In this document: in pieces, positions 41,525 to 54,841 of the stretch | Layout: every line of letters begins with the position of its first letter | Numbering within the stretch: the first letter of the stretch is position 1 | From: Flavobacterium sp. J372 | GTDB lineage: Bacteria; Bacteroidota; Bacteroidia; Flavobacteriales; Flavobacteriaceae | DNA length: 64,000 nucleotides | NCBI RefSeq assembly: GCF_024699965.1 | Contig: NZ_JAJOMZ010000004.1 | Span: 3,070,001-3,134,000, forward strand | Reading direction: 5' to 3' | The notes under the pieces: generated by a model | Databases searched by the model: none | Seen by the model: the letters and a program-made list of their open reading frames with translations, nothing else | Told to the model about the DNA's origin: nothing | Made by a program: the position numbers and the translations under genes

Positions 41525-41971
41525 TTATGTGGAATATTGAGACAAAAAACCGCAGCATATTCCTATGGATTTGCCGCAATTTTTTATGTAAATATGTTAA
41601 CTTTATGACAATTGTCGCTGCAAAAATATAGCTTTTCTCAAAACATACAGCTTTTAATCCAATGTTTAGTTTGATGATCTTTAAAGGACGGTATAGTTTC
41701 AGGTAAAATTTTAAATCATTTGAAGATTTTTTGATTTTCATTCAAGGACTCAGACGGAAAGTCATTACTTCATGCAGGCTAATAGCTAAGTAAACATATG
41801 AAAACTCTTGTTGGATATGCCGAAACAAAATCCATAAGTCATCGTTAATCTCCGAAATTAATAAGGTAGAGAAGAAATTGCTTCCTATAGTTTAATTTTT
41901 CCAATGGATGTAAGTTTTAAAACCCAGCAAGAATTTACCTAAAAAAGGTAAATTTGCTTAAAATACATGCC
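41525..41971. other. 447-bp divergent regulatory region
   Basis: This separates the AraC-type gene (leftward) from the Kdp response regulator (rightward). It is AT-rich without a credible ORF. A minus-strand TATTTTTG (41621-41628) fits the -7 consensus for the AraC gene, leaving a leader of ~95 bases. A plus-strand TAAATTTG (41949-41956) serves the response regulator and is overlapped by an inverted repeat. Confidence 0.55.
41932..41956 (+). promoter_or_regulatory. Promoter with overlapping inverted repeat for the Kdp response regulator
   Basis: The perfect inverted repeat AATTTACC-N7-GGTAAATT (41932-41954) overlaps the -7 element TAAATTTG (41949-41956), a full match to TAnnTTTG. Transcription would start near 41960, about a dozen bases before the GTG start. 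A dimeric repressor bound here would block the promoter, so autoregulation is plausible. I found no good -33 TTG. Confidence 0.55.
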
Positions 41972-43321
41972 GTGAAAAAGATACTTATAATTGATGATGA
42001 GGAAAAATTGAGAAGCCTTATGTCAAGAATAATCAAATTCGAAGGGTTTGAGGTATTCGAGGCAGGTAACTGTAAATCAGCTTTGCGGATATTACAGCAG
42101 GAAAATATAGATATAGTACTTTCTGATGTAAAACTACCTGACGGTAATGGGATAGACCTTACCAACACCATCAAAAAAGAATATCCAAGTATAGAAATCA
42201 TTCTTTTGACGGCATATGGTAATATTCCTGACGGAGTGCAGGCTATTAAACACGGGGCTTTTGATTATATTACCAAAGGTGATGACAATAATAAGATTAT
42301 ACCCTTAATTCATCGCGCGATAGAAAAATCCACTCTGCAGAGGCGTGTTGAAAACCTTAGTGCGCAGCTTGAGCAGAAGTACAGCTTTTCGGGAATAATA
42401 GGACAATCCAAAAGCATTCTTGAAGCTATAGAATTAGCGAAAAGAGTTGCCCCGACCGATACAACTGTGCTTTTGACCGGCGAAACTGGTACAGGAAAAG
42501 AAGTGTTTGCTAATGCAATACATCAGAATAGTCTCCGAAAAAATGAAAATTTTGTCGCTATAAATTGTTCCGCATTTAGCCATGACCTGCTGGAGAGTGA
42601 GATGTTCGGGCACATGCCGGGAGCATTTACCGGAGCTTTAAAAGAAAAGACCGGACTCTTTGAGGAAGCAAACCGGGGCACGATCTTTCTTGATGAGATC
42701 GGGGAACTCCCTATAGATTTGCAGGCCAAGCTGCTGCGGGTGATTGAAAACGGTGAGTTTTTCAAAGTGGGCAGTAGTAAAGCAAGAAAGGTTAATGTAC
42801 GGATCATAGCCGCAACAAACCGCAATTTCAGAACCGAGATAGAAACAGGAAAGTTTAGGGAAGATTTGTTCTACCGCCTCTCAACCTTTATTATTCACCT
42901 GCCACCTTTGCGTGAACGTGCGAAAGATATCGAGGCGCTCTCCTTACACTTCCTGAATATTTTTTCCCGAAAGACTAATAAAAAGATTTCGCAAATTTCT
43001 AAAGAGGCGCTGCATATATTAAAATCACACCAATGGCCGGGTAACATACGTGAAGTAAAGAATATCATGGAACGTAGCGTAATTCTTGAGACTACCGGTA
43101 CGTTAACTCCTGAAAGCCTTCCCGCCGAACTCAGAACCCAGCCCCCCGGAACAGAGCAATCTGGAATGCTTTCAGCATTTTCTATGGCTGCGGTAGAAAA
43201 ATTGCACATTCAAAAGGTGCTCAATTATACTGGCGGAAACAAAGCAGAGACAGCCCGTTTATTAAATATTGGAGTTGCTACCCTGTACAGAAAGATGGAT
43301 GAGTACCATTTAAATTCCTGA
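41972..43321 (+). CDS. Sigma-54-dependent response regulator (NtrC type), probable Kdp regulator
   Basis: 449 residues from GTG 41972. The TTG 18 bases earlier lies inside the -7 promoter box and is rejected. Receiver domain ~1-118 with acidic pair 'IIDDEE' and phospho-Asp in 'VLSDVKLPDG'. The AAA+ sigma-54 activation domain has Walker A 'GETGTGKEVFANAI', the sigma-54 contact loop GAFTGA near residue 217 and 'GTIFLDEIGELP'. The C-terminal Fis-type helix-turn-helix contains 'AETARLLNIGVATLYRKM'. A -24/-12 promoter lies ~130 bases beyond its stop, directly in front of the kdp genes, and a histidine kinase closes that operon. So it most likely replaces KdpE as activator of K+ uptake. Confidence 0.9.
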   Translation: MKKILIIDDEEKLRSLMSRIIKFEGFEVFEAGNCKSALRILQQENIDIVLSDVKLPDGNGIDLTNTIKKEYPSIEIILLTAYGNIPDGVQAIKHGAFDYITKGDDNNKIIPLIHRAIEKSTLQRRVENLSAQLEQKYSFSGIIGQSKSILEAIELAKRVAPTDTTVLLTGETGTGKEVFANAIHQNSLRKNENFVAINCSAFSHDLLESEMFGHMPGAFTGALKEKTGLFEEANRGTIFLDEIGELPIDLQAKLLRVIENGEFFKVGSSKARKVNVRIIAATNRNFRTEIETGKFREDLFYRLSTFIIHLPPLRERAKDIEALSLHFLNIFSRKTNKKISQISKEALHILKSHQWPGNIREVKNIMERSVILETTGTLTPESLPAELRTQPPGTEQSGMLSAFSMAAVEKLHIQKVLNYTGGNKAETARLLNIGVATLYRKMDEYHLNS

Positions 43322-43345
43322 AAAACTTCTCATTTTGAAATACCG

Positions 43346-43378
43346 ACCCTATCATAATGATAGGGTTTTCTATTTCCT
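43346..43378 (+). terminator. Perfect hairpin after the regulator: terminator and possible activator site
   Basis: ten-base arms ACCCTATCAT / ATGATAGGGT around a single central A (43346-43366), followed by TTTCTATTT. It can end the regulator transcript. It is also a dyad ~105 bases upstream of the -24/-12 promoter, where enhancer sites for NtrC-type activators usually lie. The sequence cannot decide between these, and both may hold. Confidence 0.6.
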
Positions 43379-43450
43379 GATTGGCCCTGCCCGGCGATAG
43401 GCTCTTGTATATCATACATTTACCAAATCTCATATATTATGGTATCTGTT

Positions 43451-43466
43451 TGGCTACTATGGTGCA
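43451..43466 (+). promoter_or_regulatory. Sigma-54 (-24/-12) promoter of the kdp operon
   Basis: TGGCTACTATGGTGCA fits the consensus TGGCAC-N5-TTGCA: the invariant GG and GC are present with exactly ten bases between them, and flanking TGGC and TGCA match. It lies 22 bases before the first gene of the operon and downstream of a gene for a sigma-54 activator, which greatly raises its credibility. Confidence 0.75.
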
Positions 43467-43487
43467 AAACAATAAAATCATTTCATA

Positions 43488-43769
43488 ATGAGAAACCATG
43501 TCAAATCTGCATCTGCCAAGGCGGTACAGTTCGCAGAAATTACCAAGAACCTTATCCGTAAGGGCAATATACCAAGGGCAAAAAGATGTCTGGGCATAGC
43601 TGAACAGCTACTGGCAAATGGTAATGCCGAGACAAAGAACCTGATCGCTAACATTTATGTCTTCTCGGTATCCACTTTTATGGAACTGCACAAATGCAGT
43701 ATCGCCGACCTTTTTCCGCAGTCCCTGCGCAAAGAATACATTGCCCAGGTCAACGCTTCAGGAATATAA
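43488..43769 (+). CDS. Small conserved-looking protein, first gene of the kdp operon
   Basis: 93 residues, not firmly recognised; I recall uncharacterised proteins of this size at this place in Bacteroidetes kdp loci (possibly DUF7674). It is soluble and mostly helical, with a basic N-terminus ('MRNHVKSASAKAVQF') and no signal peptide or membrane helix. Residues ~20-50 look like a single TPR-like hairpin ('RAKRCLGIAEQLLANGN'). It starts 22 bases after the -24/-12 promoter and precedes two tiny membrane-protein genes, so it is made when the pump is made. A regulatory or assembly role is inference. Confidence 0.75.
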   Translation: MRNHVKSASAKAVQFAEITKNLIRKGNIPRAKRCLGIAEQLLANGNAETKNLIANIYVFSVSTFMELHKCSIADLFPQSLRKEYIAQVNASGI

Positions 43770-43787
43770 ACCTTCAAATTAATACAA

Positions 43788-43868
43788 ATGACACTTATCC
43801 TTTACGTAACCGGCATCGCCTTCTTTGCCTTATTTATCAAATCAGTCGATTTTTTCGAAAAAGTCTAA
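43788..43868 (+). CDS. 26-residue membrane peptide upstream of kdpF
   Basis: ATG 43788 encodes MTLILYVTGIAFFALFIKSV followed by DFFEKV. It is a single hydrophobic helix with a short charged C-terminus, the same plan as KdpF encoded four bases further on, but without the KdpF 'PEKF' ending. Its place between the first operon gene and kdpF, with tight spacing and ordinary codons, supports real translation. It may be a second KdpF-like stabilising subunit. Confidence 0.6.
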   Translation: MTLILYVTGIAFFALFIKSVDFFEKV

Positions 43869-43872
43869 AACT

Positions 43873-43950
43873 ATGACAGTATTATTTATTGTAGCATTAT
43901 TGGTGTTCGGATACATCTGCTACGTACTTGTAAAACCTGAAAAATTCTAA
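43873..43950 (+). CDS. kdpF: Potassium-transporting ATPase subunit KdpF
   Basis: 25 residues: MTVLFIVALLVFGYICYVLV followed by KPEKF. One membrane helix ending in the KdpF signature 'PEKF'. KdpF is a small inner-membrane peptide that stabilises the KdpABC complex. It ends three bases before the kdpA start codon. Confidence 0.85.
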   Translation: MTVLFIVALLVFGYICYVLVKPEKF

Positions 43951-43953
43951 ACG

Positions 43954-45657
43954 ATGAACAGTGAAATTTTTGGAATTATTGTGATGTATGGACTAGTGCT
44001 GCTGCTGGCAATCCCGCTGGGCCGTTACATTGGCAAGATATTTAATTATGAGAGCACATGGCTCGACAGGATATTCAACCCGCTTGACAAACTGTTTTTT
44101 ACGATTGGAGGCATCAACCCTAACCGGGAAATGACCTGGAAGCAGCATCTGGGCGCGCTTTTGGTAATCAACTTTTTTTGGTTCCTTATCTCAATGTTTG
44201 TACTCACCAACATGGAGTGGCTGCCGCTTAACCCCGACAGCAACCCTTCGATGAGCGGCGATTTGGCCTTCAACACGTCAGTAAGCTTTATAACAAACAC
44301 CAACCTGCAGCACTACAGTGGCGAAACTGGCCTGTCTTACCTGGGCCAGCTGACACTTATGTTATGGCAATTTATAAGTGCGGGGTGCGGTATTGCTATC
44401 TGCGCGATGGTATTTCATGCCATGAAAGAAAGGACTACGGCACATCTTGGAAATTTTTACAGCTATTTTGTGCGTTCATGCACAAGGATTTTACTTCCAT
44501 TGGCTGTTGTAGTGGCCATTATCCTGGTATTCAACGGAACTCCGATGACTTTTGAGGGTAAGGATACGATCACTACTTTGGAAGGAAAAGAGCAAAATAT
44601 CAGCAGAGGTCCGGTAGCGGCATTTGTGGCAATCAAGCAGCTTGGCACTAACGGGGGCGGTTTTTACGGACCCAACTCGGCAAACCCGATGGAAAACCCA
44701 AATTACCTCACCAACATTGTCGAATCTGTAAGTATCCTTCTTATACCTATTGCCATGATATTTGCCATGGGCTATGTACTAAGGCGAAAAAAACTGGCCT
44801 GGACAATATTCGGGGTAATGACTGCAGGTTTCATGCTGCTGCTTATAACTTCAGTTTATGCCGAAATGAATGGCAATCCTGCGATTGATAAAATGGGGAT
44901 TGCACAGGCCATGGGTAATATGGAAGGTAAAGAGGTGCGGTTTGGTGCGGCGGCAACTGCTAACTGGGGAACCTACACAACCTGCACCAGCAACGGTTCG
45001 GTAAATGGCATGCACGATAGCTTTACGCCGCTTGGGGGCATGACAACCTTATTAGGAATGATGGTTAACTGCTTTTACGGAGGTGTGGGCGTAGGCTTCC
45101 TCAACTTTTACATATTCATCATTCTCGCAGTGTTCATTAGTGGGTTGATGGTAGGCCGCACACCGGAATTTCTAGGCAAAAAGATTGAAGCGAAGGAAAT
45201 GAAGATTGCAATGATAATTGCACTGCTGCATCCTTTGCTCATCCTTGCCGGTACGGCAATAGCCTCGCATGTATATGCAGGCAATCCCGAAGAATATGCC
45301 GGTTGGCTTGCCAACCCGGGTTACCACGGGTTTAGTGAGATGCTCTATGAGTTTACCTCATCATCAGCTAATAACGGCAGCGGTTTTGAAGGATTGGGCG
45401 ACAATACGCCGTTCTGGAACATTGCCTGTGGCATTGTAATGCTCATGGCACGCTACCTCCCTATTATCGGGCCTGTTGCCATTGCGGGAATACTGGCTGC
45501 GAAGAAATATGTTCCCGAAAGTTCCGGTACTCTGAAAACAGATACGCCTACATTCGGCTTCATGACTTTTGCTGTAATCTTCATAGTTGCTGCACTTTCA
45601 TTCTTCCCGGCACTCACGCTGGGGCCAATTGCCGAACATTTTTCACTTTACAAATAA
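43954..45657 (+). CDS. kdpA: Potassium-transporting ATPase subunit KdpA
   Basis: 567 residues, polytopic (about ten helices). It is the K+ channel-like subunit of the Kdp P-type pump. Selectivity-filter-type segments are visible: '[14 protein letters not shown]', '[20 protein letters not shown]', '[13 protein letters not shown]' and '[12 protein letters not shown]'. Length is normal. It is preceded by kdpF and followed by kdpB after 11 bases. It works in the inner membrane for high-affinity K+ uptake when K+ is scarce. Confidence 0.97.
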
Positions 45658-45668
45658 ATCCACACGAA

Positions 45669-47708
45669 ATGAAAAGTCAAGATACAGCCCTGTTCCGGGG
45701 TGACATGGTAAAACAGGCATTAAAGCAATCTTTCGTAAAACTTAATCCCTCATCATTGATTAAAAACCCGGTGATGTTTACGGTAGAGATAGGCACAGCT
45801 ATTATGGCATGCGTATGTGCCTGGATACTGATGGGTGAAACAAGCCAGGGAAGCTTTGCATACAACTTCACAATCTTCATGATTCTGCTGTTTACGCTTT
45901 TGTTTGCCAATTTTGCAGAAGCCATTGCAGAAGCGCGTGGCAAGGCTCAGGCCGACAGCCTGCGCAAAACCCGCGAAGAAACACCGGCTAAAAAAATTGA
46001 ATTAATTGGAGAAATTTACAAGGATGAAGTTCAGGCAGTCACTTCTTCTACCCTAAAAAAGGGTGACATCTTTATCTGCGAGCCAGGTGATATCATCCCG
46101 ACCGATGGTGAAATAATAGAAGGGCTTGCAACTATTGATGAGAGCGCCATTACAGGAGAAAGCGCTCCCGTGATCAGGGAAGCCGGAGGCGATAAAAGTT
46201 CGGTGACCGGTGGTACTAAAGTGCTTTCAGACTATATAAAGGTCCAGGTTTCGACTGATCCGGGTGAAAGCTTCCTTGATAAGATGATTGCTCTTGTAGA
46301 AGGCGCTTCGAGGCAGAAAACACCGAATGAGATTGCCCTAACAATATTGCTTGCAGGTTTTACCCTGGTCTTCATCATCGTGTGTACAACACTGCAGCCT
46401 TTTGCAGCTTATGCCAATATTACCATTACCATAGCATCATTTATATCGCTGTTTGTATGCCTCATTCCAACAACCATCGGCGGTTTGCTTTCTGCTATTG
46501 GTATAGCGGGAATGGACAGGGCATTGCGTGCCAACGTGATCACGAAGTCAGGCAAAGCAGTGGAAACTGCGGGTGATATTGATGTACTGCTTCTGGACAA
46601 AACAGGAACAATAACCATCGGTAACCGAAAGGCAACACACTTCTGGCCCGCAGAAGGCATATCTGAAAAAGACTTCATCAGGGCAACCGTACTCAGCTCA
46701 ATGAGCGATGAAACTCCCGAAGGCAAGTCGATAATAGAACTGGCCGGCGTGAATCCGCTAAGCTATGAGGCAAAAAATCCGGTGTTTATAAAGTTTACCG
46801 CCGAAACCAGAAGTTCCGGAATCGATTATGAAGGCAACAGGATACGCAAGGGTGCTTATGATGCCATTAAAAACATTGTAGAAAAAGCAGACAACAACTT
46901 CCCAATTGCAATTACCCGTAAAGTCGAGGGGATCTCAGGAAATGGAGGTACGCCTCTTGTGGTTTCAGAAAATGAGAAAGTATTAGGGGTTATCGAGCTT
47001 CAGGACATCATTAAAACCGGTATTGCTGAACGTTTTGAGCGCCTGCGGAAGATGGGTGTAAAAACTGTGATGGTAACCGGCGATAACCCCCTCACTGCAA
47101 AATTCATAGCTGAAAAAGCTGGTGTGGATGACTTTATCGCCGAAGCGAAGCCTGAAGACAAAATGAATTACATAAAAGCAGAGCAGCAGCAGGGCAAACT
47201 GGTAGCGATGATGGGTGACGGTACGAATGACGCGCCTGCCCTTGCGCAGGCAGATGTGGGCGTTGCCATGAACAGCGGAACACAGGCAGCCAAGGAAGCC
47301 GGCAACATGGTTGACCTTGACAATGACCCAACAAAACTCATTGAAATTGTAGAAATAGGCAAGCAGCTTCTGATGACAAGGGGTACGCTCACCACCTTCA
47401 GTATCGCTAATGACGTGGCAAAATATTTTGCTATCATTCCTGCGCTTTTCATCATGGCAATACCATCGCTTCAGGGGCTTAATATAATGAACCTGCACAG
47501 CCCTGAAAGCGCGATACTTTCGGCGGTGATATTCAACGCGATCATCATCCCGTTTCTTATACCGCTAGCTTTGAAAGGGGTGGCCTATAAGGCGATAGGC
47601 GCTTCTGCCCTGCTGCGGCGTAACCTGTTTATTTACGGGTTGGGCGGCATGATAGTACCGTTTATCGGAATCAAAATAATCGATATGCTGGTTTCAGTAT
47701 TCTTCTAA
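45669..47708 (+). CDS. kdpB: Potassium-transporting ATPase subunit KdpB
   Basis: 679 residues, the catalytic P-type ATPase subunit. Phosphorylation Asp in '[14 protein letters not shown]', dephosphorylation motif 'TGES' near residue 155, hinge '[18 protein letters not shown]', and the KdpB-specific '[19 protein letters not shown]'. All motifs and length are intact. It hydrolyses ATP to drive K+ through KdpA. Confidence 0.97.
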
Positions 47709-47720
47709 AAATAAATAAAA

Positions 47721-48281
47721 ATGAAACAGAACATAATATCTGCAATAAGGCTCACCTTGTTTTGTGCAGTCTTCTTTTCAGGGATTTACACCATGACTAT
47801 CTGGGGTGTGGCACAACTTGCACCCAACCAGGGTAAAGGCTTTGTTGTAGAACAGGATGGCAAAAAATACCACATTAATGTAGCCCAGAGCTTTACCAAA
47901 CCGGAATACTTCTGGCCCCGCCCGAGTGCGGTAGACTATAATGCCGCCGGATCAGGCGGCAGCAACAAAGGCCCTTCAAACCCTGAGTACCTTGCCACTG
48001 TACAGTCGCGCATAGACACTTTCCTTTTGCAAAACCCGGACCTGACTGCCGCTGATGTTCCAAGTGAGCTTGTAACGGCTTCGGGAAGCGGACTGGACCC
48101 GAACATTTCTGTGCAGGGTGCCAGGGTACAGGTAAAACGAATAGCAGACGCAAGAAACATAAGCGAAGAGCAAGTACAAACACTTATTAAAGAAAATACC
48201 GAAGCCCCGCTTCTCGGCGTTTTGGGAACCGAAAAAATCAACGTATTAAAACTTAACTTAGCATTAGATAAAATTAAGTAA
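47721..48281 (+). CDS. kdpC: Potassium-transporting ATPase subunit KdpC
   Basis: 186 residues: one N-terminal membrane helix (~8-30, 'LTLFCAVFFSGIYTMTIWG') and a periplasmic domain with 'YFWPRPSAVDYNAAGSGGSN', a KdpC hallmark, and C-terminal 'LLGVLGTEKINVLKLN'. It is an accessory subunit for ATP and K+ affinity. Its stop overlaps the start of the porin gene (TAATG). Confidence 0.96.
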   Translation: MKQNIISAIRLTLFCAVFFSGIYTMTIWGVAQLAPNQGKGFVVEQDGKKYHINVAQSFTKPEYFWPRPSAVDYNAAGSGGSNKGPSNPEYLATVQSRIDTFLLQNPDLTAADVPSELVTASGSGLDPNISVQGARVQVKRIADARNISEEQVQTLIKENTEAPLLGVLGTEKINVLKLNLALDKIK

Positions 48282-49387
48282 TGAAAACACTTTTATCCGC
48301 TTTTGCAATCACTGCGCTAACTTGCGGGGCTGTAAATGCACAAACCAGCGATACAATAAAAATACTACCACAACCTGAAATCCCGGCATTAAAATTCAGC
48401 GGCTATGCGGAAGTATATTATACCTACGATTTTGGGCAGCCGGAAAGCAACACCCGCCCCGGATTTATATATTCGCACAACCGCCACAATGAGGTAGCCC
48501 TCAATCTGGGCTTTATTAAAGCAGCCTACGACAACGGCATAGTACGCGGTAATCTGGCGTTGATGGCAGGTTCGTATGCCAATGCCAACCTTGCCGCTGA
48601 AGAATCGACATTAAAAAACGTGTACGAAGCCAATATAGGAGTGAAACTGAGCAAGACTGCAAACATCTGGATTGATGCAGGGATATTCGCTTCGCATATC
48701 GGCTTTGAAAGTGCTGTTGGTAAAGATTGCTGGACCCTTACAAGAAGCATTCTGGCAGATAACTCTCCTTATTATGAGAGCGGCGCAAAGCTGTCATACA
48801 CCTCGCCATCAGGCAAGTGGTTTATAAGTGGCCTTGTATTGAACGGCTGGCAGCGCATACAAAAGGTAGAAGGAAATAAAACCCTTTCTTTCGGGCATCA
48901 GCTGACATATAAGCCCAATACAAAAGTAACCCTTAATAGCAGCTCATTTGTCGGCAACGACAAGCCTGATGCAGACAAACGCATGAGGTACTTCCATAAC
49001 CTCTACGGAATTTTCCAACTCACTGAGAAATTTGGGCTTACCGCAGGGTTTGATATCGGTGCAGAGCAAAAAAGCAAGGGTAGCGAGCGTTATAGCAGCT
49101 GGTATTCGCCTGTGATTATTGCACGCTATGCCTTCAGCGACCGGTTTGCCATTGCTGCCCGCGGTGAGTATTACACAGATAAGGAAGGAGTAATAATTGC
49201 AACAGGCACGGAAAACGGCTTTCAAACTTTCGGATATTCGCTTAATTTTGATTACAATATCTACAGCAATGTAGTGTGGAGGGTTGAAGCAAGGACATTT
49301 AACAGCAAAGATGATGTTTTCCTAAGCAATGATGATACGTCACACAATAACAACTTTATTGCTACCGCACTGGCAATTTCATTTTAA
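48281..49387 (+). CDS. Outer-membrane beta-barrel (porin-like) protein of the kdp operon
   Basis: 368 residues with a signal peptide (~1-20, 'LTCGAVNAQ'). Many amphipathic strands with alternating aromatic residues follow ('AEVYYTYDFGQPE', 'FGYSLNFDYNIYS'), and it ends in Phe ('TALAISF'), as outer-membrane barrels do. No plug or TonB box, so a passive pore or structural barrel. Overlapping TAATG junctions on both sides tie its translation to kdpC and kdpD. A role in letting K+ cross the outer membrane when K+ is limiting is inference. Confidence 0.82.
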   Translation: MKTLLSAFAITALTCGAVNAQTSDTIKILPQPEIPALKFSGYAEVYYTYDFGQPESNTRPGFIYSHNRHNEVALNLGFIKAAYDNGIVRGNLALMAGSYANANLAAEESTLKNVYEANIGVKLSKTANIWIDAGIFASHIGFESAVGKDCWTLTRSILADNSPYYESGAKLSYTSPSGKWFISGLVLNGWQRIQKVEGNKTLSFGHQLTYKPNTKVTLNSSSFVGNDKPDADKRMRYFHNLYGIFQLTEKFGLTAGFDIGAEQKSKGSERYSSWYSPVIIARYAFSDRFAIAARGEYYTDKEGVIIATGTENGFQTFGYSLNFDYNIYSNVVWRVEARTFNSKDDVFLSNDDTSHNNNFIATALAISF

Positions 49388-50514
49388 TGGAAAGCGAAAA
49401 GGAAAATAATGTAAAACACTTTCTTGACCTGATACAAAAGTCGAGAAAGGGTAAGTTTAAGGTCTACATCGGCATGAGCGCCGGTGTAGGCAAAACTTTT
49501 CGCATGCTCCAGGAAGCCCATACGTTATTGCGCAATGGCATTGATGTTAAGATAGGATTTGTAGAAACCCACCGCCGAAAAGAAACACATGAACTACTGG
49601 AGGGTTTGCCCGTCATTCCGCAACGTTCTATCTTTTATAAAGGCAAATACCTGGAAGAAATGGATGTGCAGGCCATAATCAATCTTCGCCCGGAAGTGGT
49701 AATTGTGGATGAACTGGCACATACCAATGTTGAAGGCAGCAAAAACGAAAAGCGATGGCAGGACGTGATGGATATTATTGACGCGGGGATTAATGTAATC
49801 AGCGCTGTGAACATCCAGCATATAGAAAGCTTAAATGATGACATTAAGGAAATTACGGGAATTGAGGTAAAGGAGCGCATACCTGACAGTGTGCTTAAAG
49901 CCGCAGATGAAGTTGTAAATATTGACCTTACTGCCGACGAACTGATTACCCGCCTCAAAGAAGGAAAAATTTATACTGACGATAAAATTCAACCGGCACT
50001 CAATAACTTTTTTAAATCACAGCACATACTCCAGCTTCGGGAACTGGCGCTTAAGGAAGTTGCAAGCCAGGTTGAGCGGAAAGTAGAATCAGAAATCACA
50101 GGTTCGGGCAGCTTAAGGCACGAACGCTTTTTGGCGTGCATCAGCAGTAATCATAGTACGGCAAAGACAGTTATACGTAAAACCGCAAGGCTTGCCAATT
50201 ACTACCACAGCAAGTGGTATCTGATGTATGTTGAATTACCCGGTGAAAAGCCGGATCGTATAGCGCTTGACAAGCAGCGCCACCTGATCAATAATTTCAA
50301 GCTTGCCACCGAGCTTGGCGCAGAAGTAATCCGCGTGCAATCGGGCAGTGTTGCCTCTGCTATTATAAAGCAAGCCGAAGAGCGTAAGGCAACTACGATA
50401 TGCATCGGCAAGCCACACCTTACCCTTATCAAGGTTATCCTTTCAACAAACATATTTAATTCGCTGCTAAATAAGCTTTCCAAAAGCGAAATTGACTTAA
50501 TCATTCTTTCATAA
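49387..50514 (+). CDS. kdpD: KdpD-like sensor protein without kinase domain
   Basis: 375 residues equal to the N-terminal half of classical KdpD (~900 residues): the KdpD domain with Walker A 'GMSAGVGKTFRMLQEA' (~28-43) and 'VETHRRKETHELLEGLP', Walker B-like 'VVIVDELAHTNVEGSKNEKR', then a universal stress protein-like domain (~245-375). The membrane segment and histidine kinase of KdpD are missing. The next gene, overlapping by one base, encodes a separate membrane kinase. So the sensor appears split in two polypeptides. In E. coli this part binds ATP and c-di-AMP-type or ionic signals; here only ATP binding is supported by sequence. Confidence 0.9.
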   Translation: MESEKENNVKHFLDLIQKSRKGKFKVYIGMSAGVGKTFRMLQEAHTLLRNGIDVKIGFVETHRRKETHELLEGLPVIPQRSIFYKGKYLEEMDVQAIINLRPEVVIVDELAHTNVEGSKNEKRWQDVMDIIDAGINVISAVNIQHIESLNDDIKEITGIEVKERIPDSVLKAADEVVNIDLTADELITRLKEGKIYTDDKIQPALNNFFKSQHILQLRELALKEVASQVERKVESEITGSGSLRHERFLACISSNHSTAKTVIRKTARLANYYHSKWYLMYVELPGEKPDRIALDKQRHLINNFKLATELGAEVIRVQSGSVASAIIKQAEERKATTICIGKPHLTLIKVILSTNIFNSLLNKLSKSEIDLIILS

Positions 50515-52232
50515 TGAAAATCAAAACAAAACTGGCGCTGTCGCTAAGCCTGTTATTTGCATTGACCATAGCACTGGCAGGCCTTGCCATTTGGCAGGTA
50601 CGCCAACTCTCATCAGACACTTCCAATATACTGGTGGCAAACTACCAGTCACTGGATTATTCGCGCAATATGTATAAGATTCTGGACGAGGGAGGCCCGG
50701 ACTTTGAGAGAGCTAAATTCAGCAAATTTCTAAACAGGCAGTTAAATAACGTTACTGAGATTGGTGAACAGGAATATACAGCTGAGCTTTATGATGACTA
50801 CAAGGCTTACATACTCTCGCCTACCCCATTACGTGCAGCGGAAATCAGGGGTGACCTGAACAATATTATGAAGCTTAACATGGATGCCATAAAGCGTAAG
50901 AGCCTCAAGGCGGAAACTAATGCTGAGCAGTCTGTATTATGGCTTTCCTTTACAAGTTCTTTTTGCCTTATAATCGGCTTTACACTGTTAGTAAATGTTC
51001 CGGGATACATTGCAAATCCGATAAGGGAATTAACAGAGAGCATCAGGCAAATTGCATCCAGAAACTACTCACAAAGGGTATATAATAAAGGCAATGATGA
51101 ATTTTCAGTCCTCGCCAGGTCATTTAATACAATGGCCGAGAAACTCGAAGAATACAACAATTCCGACCTTGCTAAGCTGATGATTGAAAAAAAACGCATA
51201 GAAACACTTATTAACAGCCTCTCAGACCCGGTTATTGGCCTTGATGATAAAAACAGGATATTGTTTATTAATGAGCAGGCATTAGTAATAACAGGCCTTG
51301 CTAACTTACAAGTCATTGGCCGGAAGGCTGAAGAACTGGCACTGAAAAATGATCTTTTGCGAACCCTTCTCAAGAATATGCTGAGTGGGAACGCAAAGGG
51401 CGAGAACCTGAAAATATACAGCAATGATAAGGAAAGCCACTTTGAACAGCTGATTGTTCCGATTAATATATTACCAACAGGGGAGGCTGAAAAGAGGCAT
51501 ATAGGAACCTTCATGATACTTCGAAACATTACAGCTTATAAAGAACTTGACGCTGCCAAAACAAATTTTATTGCTACTGTTTCCCATGAATTCAAGACAC
51601 CTATAGCTTCCATGAAAATGAGCCTACAGCTTTTAGAAAATGAAAAAACAGGCGCACTTAATGATGAGCAATTAAGCCTTGTTGAAAGCCTTCGGGAAGA
51701 TACCGAGCGCTTGCTTAGAACCACTGGCGAGTTGCTTAACATAACACAAGTAGAAACAGGGAAGGCACAATTTCAATTGGCAAATTTAGATATTGCACCA
51801 ATAATACAGAAAGCCATTGAATCTAACGATAAAATAGCTGGACGTAAAGACATACGATTGATTGTGCCCAAACTAACTCATTTGCCACAAATCTCAGCTG
51901 ACGCAGAAAAAGCAGAGTGGATCATATCAAATCTTATTTCTAATGCAGTCAGGTATTCTTATGAAAATTCTGAAGTTAAAATTCATACAGCCCTAACGCC
52001 GGCATACGTTGAGATTGCGGTGCAGGATGATGGGATCGGGATACCGGAAGAGCATCACGGCAAGGTCTTTGAAAAATATTTCAGGGTTCCCGGCAATGAA
52101 AAAGATGGCACAGGCCTAGGCCTGAGCATCAGTAAAGAATTTATTGAGGCGATGGGCGGTTACATCAAATTACAAAGTGACATTGGGCGTGGGAGTATAT
52201 TTACGGTAGGTTTCAGACGGAACCATGGCTAA
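50514..52232 (+). CDS. HAMP/PAS sensor histidine kinase of the kdp operon
   Basis: 572 residues. Membrane helix ~7-28, periplasmic segment ~29-140, second helix ~143-165, HAMP domain to ~217 ('REFTE'-like 'PIRELTESIRQIASRNY'), PAS ~230-335 ('DPVIGLDDKNRILFINEQAL'), phospho-acceptor H358 in 'TVSHEFKTPIASMKM', and the ATPase domain with 'WIISNLISNAVRYSY', 'DDGIGIP' and 'GTGLGLSISKEF'. It is the likely phosphate donor of the NtrC-type regulator at 41972-43321. It lacks any KdpD domain; the kdpD-like gene before it supplies that part. Confidence 0.9.
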   Translation: MKIKTKLALSLSLLFALTIALAGLAIWQVRQLSSDTSNILVANYQSLDYSRNMYKILDEGGPDFERAKFSKFLNRQLNNVTEIGEQEYTAELYDDYKAYILSPTPLRAAEIRGDLNNIMKLNMDAIKRKSLKAETNAEQSVLWLSFTSSFCLIIGFTLLVNVPGYIANPIRELTESIRQIASRNYSQRVYNKGNDEFSVLARSFNTMAEKLEEYNNSDLAKLMIEKKRIETLINSLSDPVIGLDDKNRILFINEQALVITGLANLQVIGRKAEELALKNDLLRTLLKNMLSGNAKGENLKIYSNDKESHFEQLIVPINILPTGEAEKRHIGTFMILRNITAYKELDAAKTNFIATVSHEFKTPIASMKMSLQLLENEKTGALNDEQLSLVESLREDTERLLRTTGELLNITQVETGKAQFQLANLDIAPIIQKAIESNDKIAGRKDIRLIVPKLTHLPQISADAEKAEWIISNLISNAVRYSYENSEVKIHTALTPAYVEIAVQDDGIGIPEEHHGKVFEKYFRVPGNEKDGTGLGLSISKEFIEAMGGYIKLQSDIGRGSIFTVGFRRNHG

Positions 52233-52523: not shown

Positions 52524-52886
52524 CTATGCCTTTTTACAGCATCCATCAAGGCCATCGTAGGCAACAGGATCTGCTTTTATTTCATCGGCATCATAGCCAA
52601 GCTTGCTTATTGCCATCTTAATTTTAGCTATATCTGTCTTCTTTGTATTGTAAGTCACTTTGATAGTCATTGCCTTGTCATCAAGAACAACCATCTGCAC
52701 TCCCTTTTCCTTCAGAAGTGCCTGATTGAATTTTGGCCCACAGGTCTCGCATGCCTTGCAATGGTCGCAATAGATAGCTGTTTTTATGGTTGCTGTCTGG
52801 ATTGTCTTCTTATCCTGTGCAGAAACAGCGTTAATGCATAAAAGTAAAGTGAAGGCCAGAAGGAATGTTTTTAAGATTGATTTCAT
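52524..52886 (-). CDS. Exported heavy-metal-associated (HMA) domain protein
   Basis: 120 residues with a signal peptide (~1-24, ending 'CINAVSAQ'). The mature part has the ferredoxin-like HMA fold with an enlarged metal site, C40-x2-C43-x2-C46-x2-C49, and a C-terminal Cys pair in 'GLDGCCKKA'. The usual MxCxxC loop is thus replaced by four evenly spaced Cys. It is last gene of a leftward operon with a P1B-ATPase that lacks its own HMA domain, so it could hold metal in the periplasm. Metal identity is not determined. Confidence 0.85.
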   Translation of the reverse strand: MKSILKTFLLAFTLLLCINAVSAQDKKTIQTATIKTAIYCDHCKACETCGPKFNQALLKEKGVQMVVLDDKAMTIKVTYNTKKTDIAKIKMAISKLGYDADEIKADPVAYDGLDGCCKKA

Positions 52887-52927
52887 TGTCGTGTTTTAAA
52901 AGTTGTGGGTAAATATACTGATTGATT

Positions 52928-54841
52928 TTATAATTTCATTTTCTGGATGCGGACCGCATTCAGTATTGCCAGAAGGGCAACACCAACATCAGCAATAACT
53001 GCCTCCCAAAGGTTAGCTACTCCACCAGCCCCTAGAGCAAGTACCAGGACTTTAACCGTCATTGCAAGTATGATGTTCTGCCATACGATTCGCTTGGTCA
53101 GCTTTCCGACTTTTATGGCGGTGACGATCTTAGACGGCTGGTCATTCTGTATAACAATATCCGCAGTTTCAATGGTTGCATCACTGCCAAGGCCGCCCAT
53201 GGCAATGCCCGCATCAGCTAAGGCGACAACCGGTGCATCGTTAACCCCGTCCCCGACAAATGCGATGCGCTTGCCCTGGTCTTTCAACTGCTGTACCTTT
53301 TCAACCTTTCCTTCCGGCAGCAGATCGCCATATGCATTATCAATGCCCAACTCCTTTGCCACCTGCTGTACAACAGCCTGCTTATCTCCCGAGAGCATTA
53401 CCGTCTGAACCCCCAGCTTGTGCAGCTCCCTGATAGCCTGAGGGGCATCCTCCTTAATCTTGTCAGCAATGGTGATATGCCCGCTGTATTTATTGTCTAT
53501 AGCAACAACAACAATGGTGTACACAATTGCGTCTACTGCCTGCGGGTATTCAATGTTAAATTTCTTCATCAATTTGGTATTGCCGGCAAGGACTTCTTTT
53601 CCTCCGATAGTACCCTTGAGCCCGTGCCCAGAAATCTCTTCAACGTTCGAGATCGAAATTCCCTGTAGTGCTTCTTTGCCCGTGTGCTCCACGATAGCAA
53701 GGCCAATAGGATGCGTGGATTGGCTCTCCAGCGCAGCTGCTGTTCTGAGTAGTTCTTCCTCCGGAATGCCCTGAGTAGCCACTTCCTGTACCTTGAAAAT
53801 ACCTTCAGTAAGCGTGCCTGTTTTGTCCATTACCACTACATTTACCTCTGTCATAACATCCAGGAAGTTAGAGCCTTTAAAAAGGATGCCTTTGCGGGAG
53901 GCAAGGCCGATACCCCCAAAATAGCCAAGCGGTATGGAAACCACTAAAGCGCATGGGCAGCTTATTACGAGGAATACCAAGGCTCTGTAAAACCATACCC
54001 TGAAAATATAGTCCTCTACAAAGAAGTAAGGGACAAGGCAGACTGCAAGCGCCAGGGCAAAGACGATTGGAGTATATACTTTGGCGAAGCGGCTGATAAA
54101 GAGCTGCGTCTGGGATTTGCGGGCGGTGGCGTCCTGCACCATCTCCAATATCCTGCTGAGTTTGCTGTCTTGGAACAGAGCAGTAACCTTAACCTCGGCC
54201 ACGGTATTAAGATTGATCATACCTGCATAAATCTTTTCACCCTTAGCCTTTGTATCTGGCTTGCTTTCTCCTGTCAGCGCAGCAGTGTTGAAGGAAGCCT
54301 TCTCTGAAGAAAGCTCACCGTCAAGGGCCACCTTTTCGCCGGGCTTTACCTGTATCACTTCACCAACTTGTACCTCCTTTGGATGTACTACTTCAGACTT
54401 GCCGTTGCGCAGGACGGAAACCTCTTCGGGCCGCACATCAAGCAAGGCCTTAATGCTCCTTTTTGCCCTGTTGACCGCACTATCCTGAAACCATTCCCCA
54501 ATAGAATAGAAAGCCATTACCGCCACGCCTTCGCTATAAGAGCCGATAGCAAAGGCACCAATGGTCGCCACGCTCATAAGGAAGAACTCATTAAAGAAAT
54601 CAAAGCGCATCGCTTTACGCCACGCCATATACAGTACATTATATCCTGCTAAGAGATAGGCCACTGCGTAGATAATAAAATTAAGGGGGAATTCGGGGTT
54701 GTATTCGAAAGCGTATTCAAGCCCCAGCATGGTAAATAATATGGCTATGGCCGCAAGCAGCGGTAAATGTTCTTTCAACTCTTCTGCTTCTTTCGCCGAA
54801 GACGATGAAGCAGGGCTATTAATACTATTGTTCGTTTGCAT
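52928..54841 (-). CDS. Heavy-metal P1B-type ATPase (Zn/Cd/Pb class)
   Basis: 637 residues. Intact P-type motifs: actuator 'TGES', membrane metal site 'SCPCALVVS' (residues ~294-302), phosphorylation Asp near 339 in 'MDKTGTLTEG', 'STHPIGLAIVEH' (the HP motif) and 'GDGVNDAPVVALADAG'. There is no N-terminal HMA domain. The CPC motif and the final helix 'GVALLAILNAVRIQKM' place it with the ZntA/CadA-like Zn2+/Cd2+/Pb2+ exporters. It lies 25 bases after a TonB receptor gene and 41 bases before the exported HMA-protein gene. Confidence 0.9.
   Translation of the reverse strand: MQTNNSINSPASSSSAKEAEELKEHLPLLAAIAILFTMLGLEYAFEYNPEFPLNFIIYAVAYLLAGYNVLYMAWRKAMRFDFFNEFFLMSVATIGAFAIGSYSEGVAVMAFYSIGEWFQDSAVNRAKRSIKALLDVRPEEVSVLRNGKSEVVHPKEVQVGEVIQVKPGEKVALDGELSSEKASFNTAALTGESKPDTKAKGEKIYAGMINLNTVAEVKVTALFQDSKLSRILEMVQDATARKSQTQLFISRFAKVYTPIVFALALAVCLVPYFFVEDYIFRVWFYRALVFLVISCPCALVVSIPLGYFGGIGLASRKGILFKGSNFLDVMTEVNVVVMDKTGTLTEGIFKVQEVATQGIPEEELLRTAAALESQSTHPIGLAIVEHTGKEALQGISISNVEEISGHGLKGTIGGKEVLAGNTKLMKKFNIEYPQAVDAIVYTIVVVAIDNKYSGHITIADKIKEDAPQAIRELHKLGVQTVMLSGDKQAVVQQVAKELGIDNAYGDLLPEGKVEKVQQLKDQGKRIAFVGDGVNDAPVVALADAGIAMGGLGSDATIETADIVIQNDQPSKIVTAIKVGKLTKRIVWQNIILAMTVKVLVLALGAGGVANLWEAVIADVGVALLAILNAVRIQKMKL

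Follow-up and report, generated by a model that had tools for sequence, protein, structure and literature searches.

Candidate sigma-54/NtrC-type control of the kdp potassium pump operon in Flavobacterium sp. J372 and relatives among the Bacteroidota

KdpDE, which is found beside the Kdp potassium pump, is a textbook two-component system. Sigma-54 systems of the NtrC/NifA type consist of a regulator with receiver, AAA+ and Fis parts, upstream dyads and a -24/-12 promoter. According to extracts of Rajeev 2011 (PMC3333781) and Kazakov 2015 (PMC4641369), the NtrC-family protein DVU3334 of Desulfovibrio vulgaris, which contains GAFTGA, targets its own kdpFABC operon, and KdpD is split there, its K+ sensor/Usp part and its kinase forming two proteins. 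Extracts of a more recent paper (Nat Commun 2024, PMC11018627) describe the N-terminal domain of KdpD as a serine kinase acting on KdpB; a survey of 5495 species found KdpD without its histidine kinase part predominantly associated with the absence of KdpE. A short KdpD was noted in Bacteroidota, gating by cyclic diadenosine monophosphate (c-di-AMP) was proposed, and where the kinase part is missing the sole role of KdpD was taken to be post-translational, other regulators not being denied.

Here we describe the kdp locus in a stretch of 64,000 nucleotides from Flavobacterium sp. J372 (contig NZ_JAJOMZ010000004.1, positions 3,070,001 to 3,134,000), called the window in the following; positions are counted from its first letter and are collected in Table 1. 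As judged by sequence comparison, this kdp operon is very probably under sigma-54/NtrC-type control from a -24/-12 promoter at 43438-43455. The reading is supported because the regulator, a pair of dyads and the promoter are conserved, and because loci with KdpDE contrast with it. Control of this type had been proposed from the window alone (the original prediction); the idea is upheld by the conservation, but not the promoter register which was named.

A response regulator with a GAFTGA loop and Fis domain, and a histidine kinase as the last operon gene, had been predicted correctly: matches to Response_reg, Sigma54_activat and HTH_8 were obtained for the former, with the loop readable in its translation, and HAMP-PAS-HisKA-HATPase for the latter. 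A domain scan gave no match to Trans_reg_C, the OmpR-type domain, in the window's regulator. KdpA, KdpB and KdpC all scored above curated cut-offs, as for a KdpFABC pump. Domain and NCBIfam profile scans gave no histidine kinase domain in the window's KdpD of 375 amino acids (aa); its best NCBIfam match was KdpD_non_kinase (NF038185) with 357 bits, below the cut-off of 550, and its Usp-like part reached 23.1 bits, narrowly below the cut-off of 24. The separate kinase is the probable partner of the NtrC-type regulator. One rpoN match was found in the genome, containing ARRTIAKYRE, which is presumably the RpoN box that reads the -24 element, together with four strong sigma-54 activator domains, one of them inside a frame with a stop. 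Overlooked in the original prediction were the tandem dyads, the TAnnTTTG element before the regulator gene and the missing kinase domain of KdpD.

KdpA was detected in 86 of 296 genomes sampled from the phylum (85 above cut-off) but, within the window's own family, in just 3 of 120. Stretches around KdpA (up to about 5 kilobases (kb) upstream and 9.5 kb downstream) were fetched as L013-L100, plus L001; a KdpA frame was present in 88 loci, and neighbours were assigned by phmmer with the window proteins. Three arrangements were found. The first, with a short KdpD (368-426 aa) and an NtrC-type regulator, has 40 members: the window, L001, which was placed here despite a KdpD cut at 79 aa, and 38 of the fetched loci, of which L032 came from the family genomes and the other 37 from the phylum sample. 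Counting the window, 38 of the 85 genomes of the phylum that passed the KdpA cut-off have this arrangement. A regulator of one clade lies within about 10 kb of kdp in 40/40 of these loci, in L042 about 9 kb upstream and outside the stretch, in L059 beyond the 3' end of the kinase gene, where the stretch edge truncates it; a kinase match is present in 39/40, being absent in the cut L001 and limited to short matches in L038. The second arrangement, with full-length KdpD (881-932 aa), comprises 14 loci, and no sigma-54 regulator was found in their fetched stretches. A receiver protein of 228-257 aa is present in 13 of them, L069 having a 60-aa piece only, and all eight regulators scanned from the 14 loci were OmpR-type (Trans_reg_C).

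The 30 further loci, 29 of them from family f17, have a KdpD of mostly about 550-580 aa and a kinase and regulator located before kdpA. In f17, a distant family (L071 and L073-L100 except L090), the regulator is a different NtrC-type protein, and kdp may have become linked to sigma-54 independently there; the short f17 regulators (177-215 aa) are cut by the stretch edge, and upstream regions of the f17 regulators were inspected by eye, in no more than a few loci. Strong -24/-12 sites were seen in L075 and L096 and a fair one in L061. The earlier statement that "this lineage has rewired" its kdp control is therefore too narrow, in view of the size of the short-KdpD class, the f17 regulators and the D. 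vulgaris case. Six loci without usable kdpA or KdpD context were placed in no class (L024, L052, L054, L068, L072, L090; L054, L068 and L090 belong to the 85), and one short KdpA fragment (G120, second contig) stayed outside the survey. L024 (G245:C23) holds a second, divergent KdpA, and a KdpB or KdpC match was absent from its stretch.

In a FastTree phylogeny of 71 regulators (midpoint root) the 42 regulators of the short-KdpD type form one clade with a support of 0.911, separate from the regulators of the third arrangement and from other activators of four genomes. The clade includes the copies of Parabacteroides distasonis and Bacteroides finegoldii. G[AS]FTGA is present in 35/37 relatives with an uncut regulator in the stretch (L036 has GAFTSA, L043 GAYTGA), and the recognition helix region, of the TTLYRK type, is similar across the window, the 13 relatives shown and the two Bacteroidales.

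Between the regulator gene and the operon two tandem dyads were found, with the core YCAWWWTGR; pairs are mostly 19-22 base pairs (bp) apart and usually precede the promoter by about 80 bp. They look like an enhancer, on the pattern of their conservation. At least one exact core occurs in 37/40 short-KdpD loci (9.4 expected) versus 1/13 full-length-KdpD loci (2.2 expected). Pairs, defined as one exact core plus one with at most one mismatch, occur in 33 of 42 loci, i.e., the short-KdpD class and the two Bacteroidales (1.1 expected), versus none of the 13 controls (0.1 expected); L064, with full-length KdpD and 2 bp upstream, is outside these controls, and the pair of L023 (spacing 26) is probably due to chance. 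The shuffles behind all these expectations kept composition and not kinship, which overstates independence; nonetheless, the sites hold over several families.

The promoter was searched for by an expectation-maximisation (EM) procedure with one site per sequence in the 140 bp following the dyad. From 41 relatives, L031 and L038 were without an anchoring dyad and 12 close kin were held out; 27 loci were trained, the window excluded, with hand-chosen dyad anchors for L058, L063 and L120. A log-likelihood of 168.9 was reached, compared with 60.8 ± 4.4 (maximum 75.1) in 20 Markov shuffles, which did not preserve kinship among the loci. The resulting motif, TTTGGCAT-N3-TTTTG, corresponds to a -24/-12 promoter upstream of kdp, with a strong -24 GG and a -12 element which is relaxed across relatives, TTG being followed by G, A or C. 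Sites near consensus precede kdp in B. finegoldii (TGGCACGCATTTGGCA) and P. distasonis (TGGCACAGCTTTGGCA), both in the training set. A strict scan for GG-N10-GC upstream of kdpA had given high scores in some loci only, because many relatives carry GG or GA at -12, and EM motif discovery was used instead.

In the held-out window the model scored 43438-43455 at 4.9, 77 bases after the end of the dyad core, and the overlapping site of the original prediction, 43449-43466, at 0.3. Sites start 77-79 bases after the core in the genus and in family f2 of the order. The conserved promoter thus probably lies 11 bases upstream of the site first proposed, with a predicted start at about 43466 rather than 43477. 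That the window's lineage uses GG 43452-43453 and GC 43464-43465 instead, under the same sigma-54 control, is unlikely. The exact GG-N10-GC with TGCA is literally present there, 22 bases ahead of the start codon (ATG, 43488); TTGGC would be suitable as a -24 element, the window departs from its relatives exactly at this place, and a simple consensus score worked by hand ranks both registers about equally. Yet the downstream GC is not kept in an alignment with 12 genus relatives and L001, and the upstream register shows GG-N10-GG in the genus relatives, equally far from the dyad. The site is not above chance either: TGG-N9-TGCW has 16 matches in the window versus 25.7 expected, so that the motif alone proves nothing. 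In the same alignment TTTTGGCAT is kept except in L001; its assignment as -24 element was rejected, as a GG located 10 bases further upstream is conserved and TTTTGG falls at -12 in the EM motif. A genome search with TTTGGCAY-N7-TGC gave 4 matches versus 3 for the control, three of the four within same-strand frames. The promoter comparison across Bacteroidetes kdp loci suggested with the original prediction recovered a -24/-12 motif without the window, in another register.

Several observations, besides the kinship ignored by the shuffles, weigh against sigma-54 control from 43438-43455. The window's promoter match is weak, since 119 positions in the 64 kb score at least 4.9, and such a score is expected by chance with a frequency of 0.12 within 120 shuffled bases and 0.007 at five given offsets. 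The distance from promoter to dyad varies between 53 and 122 bases outside the genus and f2 (L001 excluded). Exact dyad cores are missing in 3/40 short-KdpD loci (L015, L031, L038), pairs in 9/42 loci. Within 900 bp around kdpA, mostly kinase coding, TTGGCAY occurred in 0/30 and the dyad core in 1/30 loci of the third arrangement. 

As to the motif search itself, the site of L001 at +13 is probably false, and a run with the window included set the window's site at +19 instead. Best promoter scores in the 13 KdpDE control loci ranged from -1.4 to 7.3; the window's 4.9 alone is therefore not distinctive, its position is.

That the dyads are merely the terminator of the regulator gene, whose conservation mimics an enhancer, appears quite improbable. 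Dyad 2 often coincides with the stem of this terminator, and T residues follow the stem in the window and its genus relatives; however, the other dyad, which lies outside the stem, is conserved, and the stem occurs without a T run in L045, L058, L063 and L065. The intact regulator gene of B. finegoldii and of P. distasonis is not next to kdp, yet dyads and promoter precede kdp in both. Together with the stems lacking a T run, this suggests that dyad 2 is more than a terminator. The matches in these Bacteroidales, on "plasmid" records, were initially read as kdp loci; with the regulator located away from kdp, they became a test of the dyads. L121, where KdpD and a kinase-like frame were present and kdpA was not seen in the stretch, was dropped. 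In P. distasonis a 61-aa helix-turn-helix protein (L119:3090-3275) precedes kdp; its sequence resembles a C-terminal remnant of the kdp regulator. The circular "plasmid" records of strains TSDC17.2-1.1 (L118 and L120; also L117, L119, L121) carry chromosomal-looking genes, e.g., rplS in L118 and guaA in L120, and may be mislabelled pieces of chromosome.

That the housekeeping sigma factor transcribes kdp from a -33/-7 promoter, with the regulator controlling something else, is highly improbable. A sigma-70-like match lies at 43450-43478 (28 such matches in the region versus 23.4 expected), and in the two Bacteroidales the regulator is away from kdp, and in P. distasonis the intact orthologue and a kinase of its own are found next to nrfHA on a different record (L117). 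TAnnTTTG, which we take to be the housekeeping -7 element of Bacteroidota, was found in the kdp promoter region in 3/37 loci (4.9 expected, no enrichment) versus 25/38 loci within 120 bp upstream of the regulator start (2.9 expected), the start being estimated from the DD[ED] motif and L059 left out. This difference between two regions of the same loci points to a housekeeping promoter before the regulator gene but not before kdp.

The short KdpD of the window has the features of the serine kinase, i.e., the KdpD domain with Walker A and B and a TGES serine in KdpB; among relatives of the short-KdpD class Walker A is kept in 37/37 and TGES in 36/37. Diadenylate cyclase was not matched in the window's genus (PF02457 in 0/61 genomes, TIGR00159 in 0/25), whereas among 15 genomes from elsewhere in the order 12 gave a TIGR00159 match, 10 above cut-off. 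The short KdpD of the genus would thus be gated otherwise, or by the product of an unrecognised cyclase. Constitutive transcription with solely post-translational control by the short KdpD would agree with these conserved motifs and with the sole role given to this protein in the extracts of PMC11018627, but it is highly improbable, as the regulator and the kinase are kept with kdp as described above and transcriptional and post-translational modes can coexist.

Under sigma-54/NtrC-type control the response regulator would be produced from its housekeeping-type promoter and phosphorylated by the operon-terminal kinase. It would then bind the dyads at 43328-43365 and drive open-complex formation about 80 bp downstream, where sigma-54 RNA polymerase would transcribe the kdp operon from 43438-43455; dyad 2 would additionally terminate the regulator transcript. 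The KdpD without kinase would carry no transcriptional signal and, by homology, would be a serine kinase shutting off KdpB. While the gene set, the single regulator clade, the dyads, the promoter motif and its spacing come from the comparison of the loci, we infer that the regulator binds DNA, that transcription depends on sigma-54, that kinase and regulator pair and that low K+ is the signal.

Table 1. Features of the kdp locus, in window coordinates
Feature	Position	Strand	Remarks
TAAATTTG, fits TAnnTTTG	41949..41956	+	before regulator gene
NtrC-type (sigma-54 activating) response regulator	41972..43321	+	Response_reg, Sigma54_activat, HTH_8 domains
Candidate enhancer dyad 1	43328..43341	+	core TCATTTTGA, 43330-43338
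Candidate enhancer dyad 2	43347..43365	+	CCCTATCATAATGATAGGG, core 43352-43360; stem of the regulator's terminator-like site
Best-supported -24/-12 promoter	43438..43455	+	GG 43441-43442, N10, GC 43453-43454; predicted start about 43466
-24/-12 site of the original prediction, overlapping	43449..43466	+	GG 43452-43453, GC 43464-43465; start about 43477
DUF7674 protein, first operon gene	43488..43769	+	domain match
KdpF-like short hydrophobic peptide 1	43788..43868	+	by eye from sequence
KdpF-like short hydrophobic peptide 2	43873..43950	+	by eye from sequence
KdpA	43954..45657	+	TIGR00680
KdpB	45669..47708	+	profile match; TGES motif present
KdpC	47721..48281	+	profile match
BBP2 outer-membrane porin	48281..49387	+	domain match
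Short KdpD, 375 aa	49387..50514	+	KdpD domain and Usp-like part; Walker A GMSAGVGKT
Separate HAMP-PAS-HisKA-HATPase histidine kinase, last operon gene	50514..52232	+	domain matches

DUF7674 between the regulator gene and kdpA is confined to the window, the relatives from its genus and L001, with one further match elsewhere in L043. No known riboswitch was found before kdp; Rfam at gathering thresholds gave only one tRNA in the window. Immediately downstream and convergent with kdp (52524-54841, minus strand) lie genes for a small cysteine-containing protein of heavy-metal type and a P-type ATPase of heavy-metal type, as assigned by eye.

The loci suggest that transcriptional control of kdp has not been lost in many Bacteroidota and is held by another class of regulator. 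Candidates for an enhancer, a promoter and a start site, open to experiment, are supplied, as well as a comparative set of -24/-12 promoters with a relaxed -12 element for the phylum; the question arises which signal the short KdpD reads where searches gave no c-di-AMP cyclase. We would propose tentatively, and with some doubt, that in many families of the Bacteroidota the ancestral kdp control was a sigma-54 switch, consisting of one regulator family, a YCAWWWTGR enhancer pair doubling as terminator, and a kinase without the K+-sensing part of KdpD. Transcription and serine-kinase shut-off would then be run by two unrelated sensors; with no c-di-AMP from a known cyclase in the window's genus, both could read K+ there by undescribed mechanisms. 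No description of sigma-54 control of kdp in Bacteroidota was found in the open-access literature, as judged from listings, subscription papers being outside the search; kdp and potassium were absent from the main text of a 2025 sigma-54 regulon survey (PMC12316311).

Since sigma-54 control of kdp is already known from D. vulgaris, the Bacteroidota version is a new, well-delimited variant. The DVU3334 system, likened here by architecture and by its description in the extracts cited, shares the NtrC-type regulator and a split KdpD at kdp; it belongs to another phylum, however, its regulator is encoded inside its own target operon, on which two further regulators also act. The short KdpD of Deinococcus geothermalis, as described in extracts of PMC11018627, shares KdpD and Usp-like domains without a histidine kinase, and the Walker motifs, but gating by c-di-AMP is proposed there, whereas the searches in the window's genus gave no match to a diadenylate cyclase. 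E. coli KdpD/KdpE has in common with the window two-component control beside the same pump and the N-terminal domain of KdpD; its OmpR-type KdpE and one-chain KdpD set it apart from the window's locus, and full-length-KdpD loci form the separate Bacteroidota class of 14. NtrC/NifA-type systems have the same regulator architecture, dyads and promoter type as this locus, from which they differ in that here the Kdp pump would be the target and the -12 element reads TTGG, TTGA or TTGC instead of a strict TTGC.

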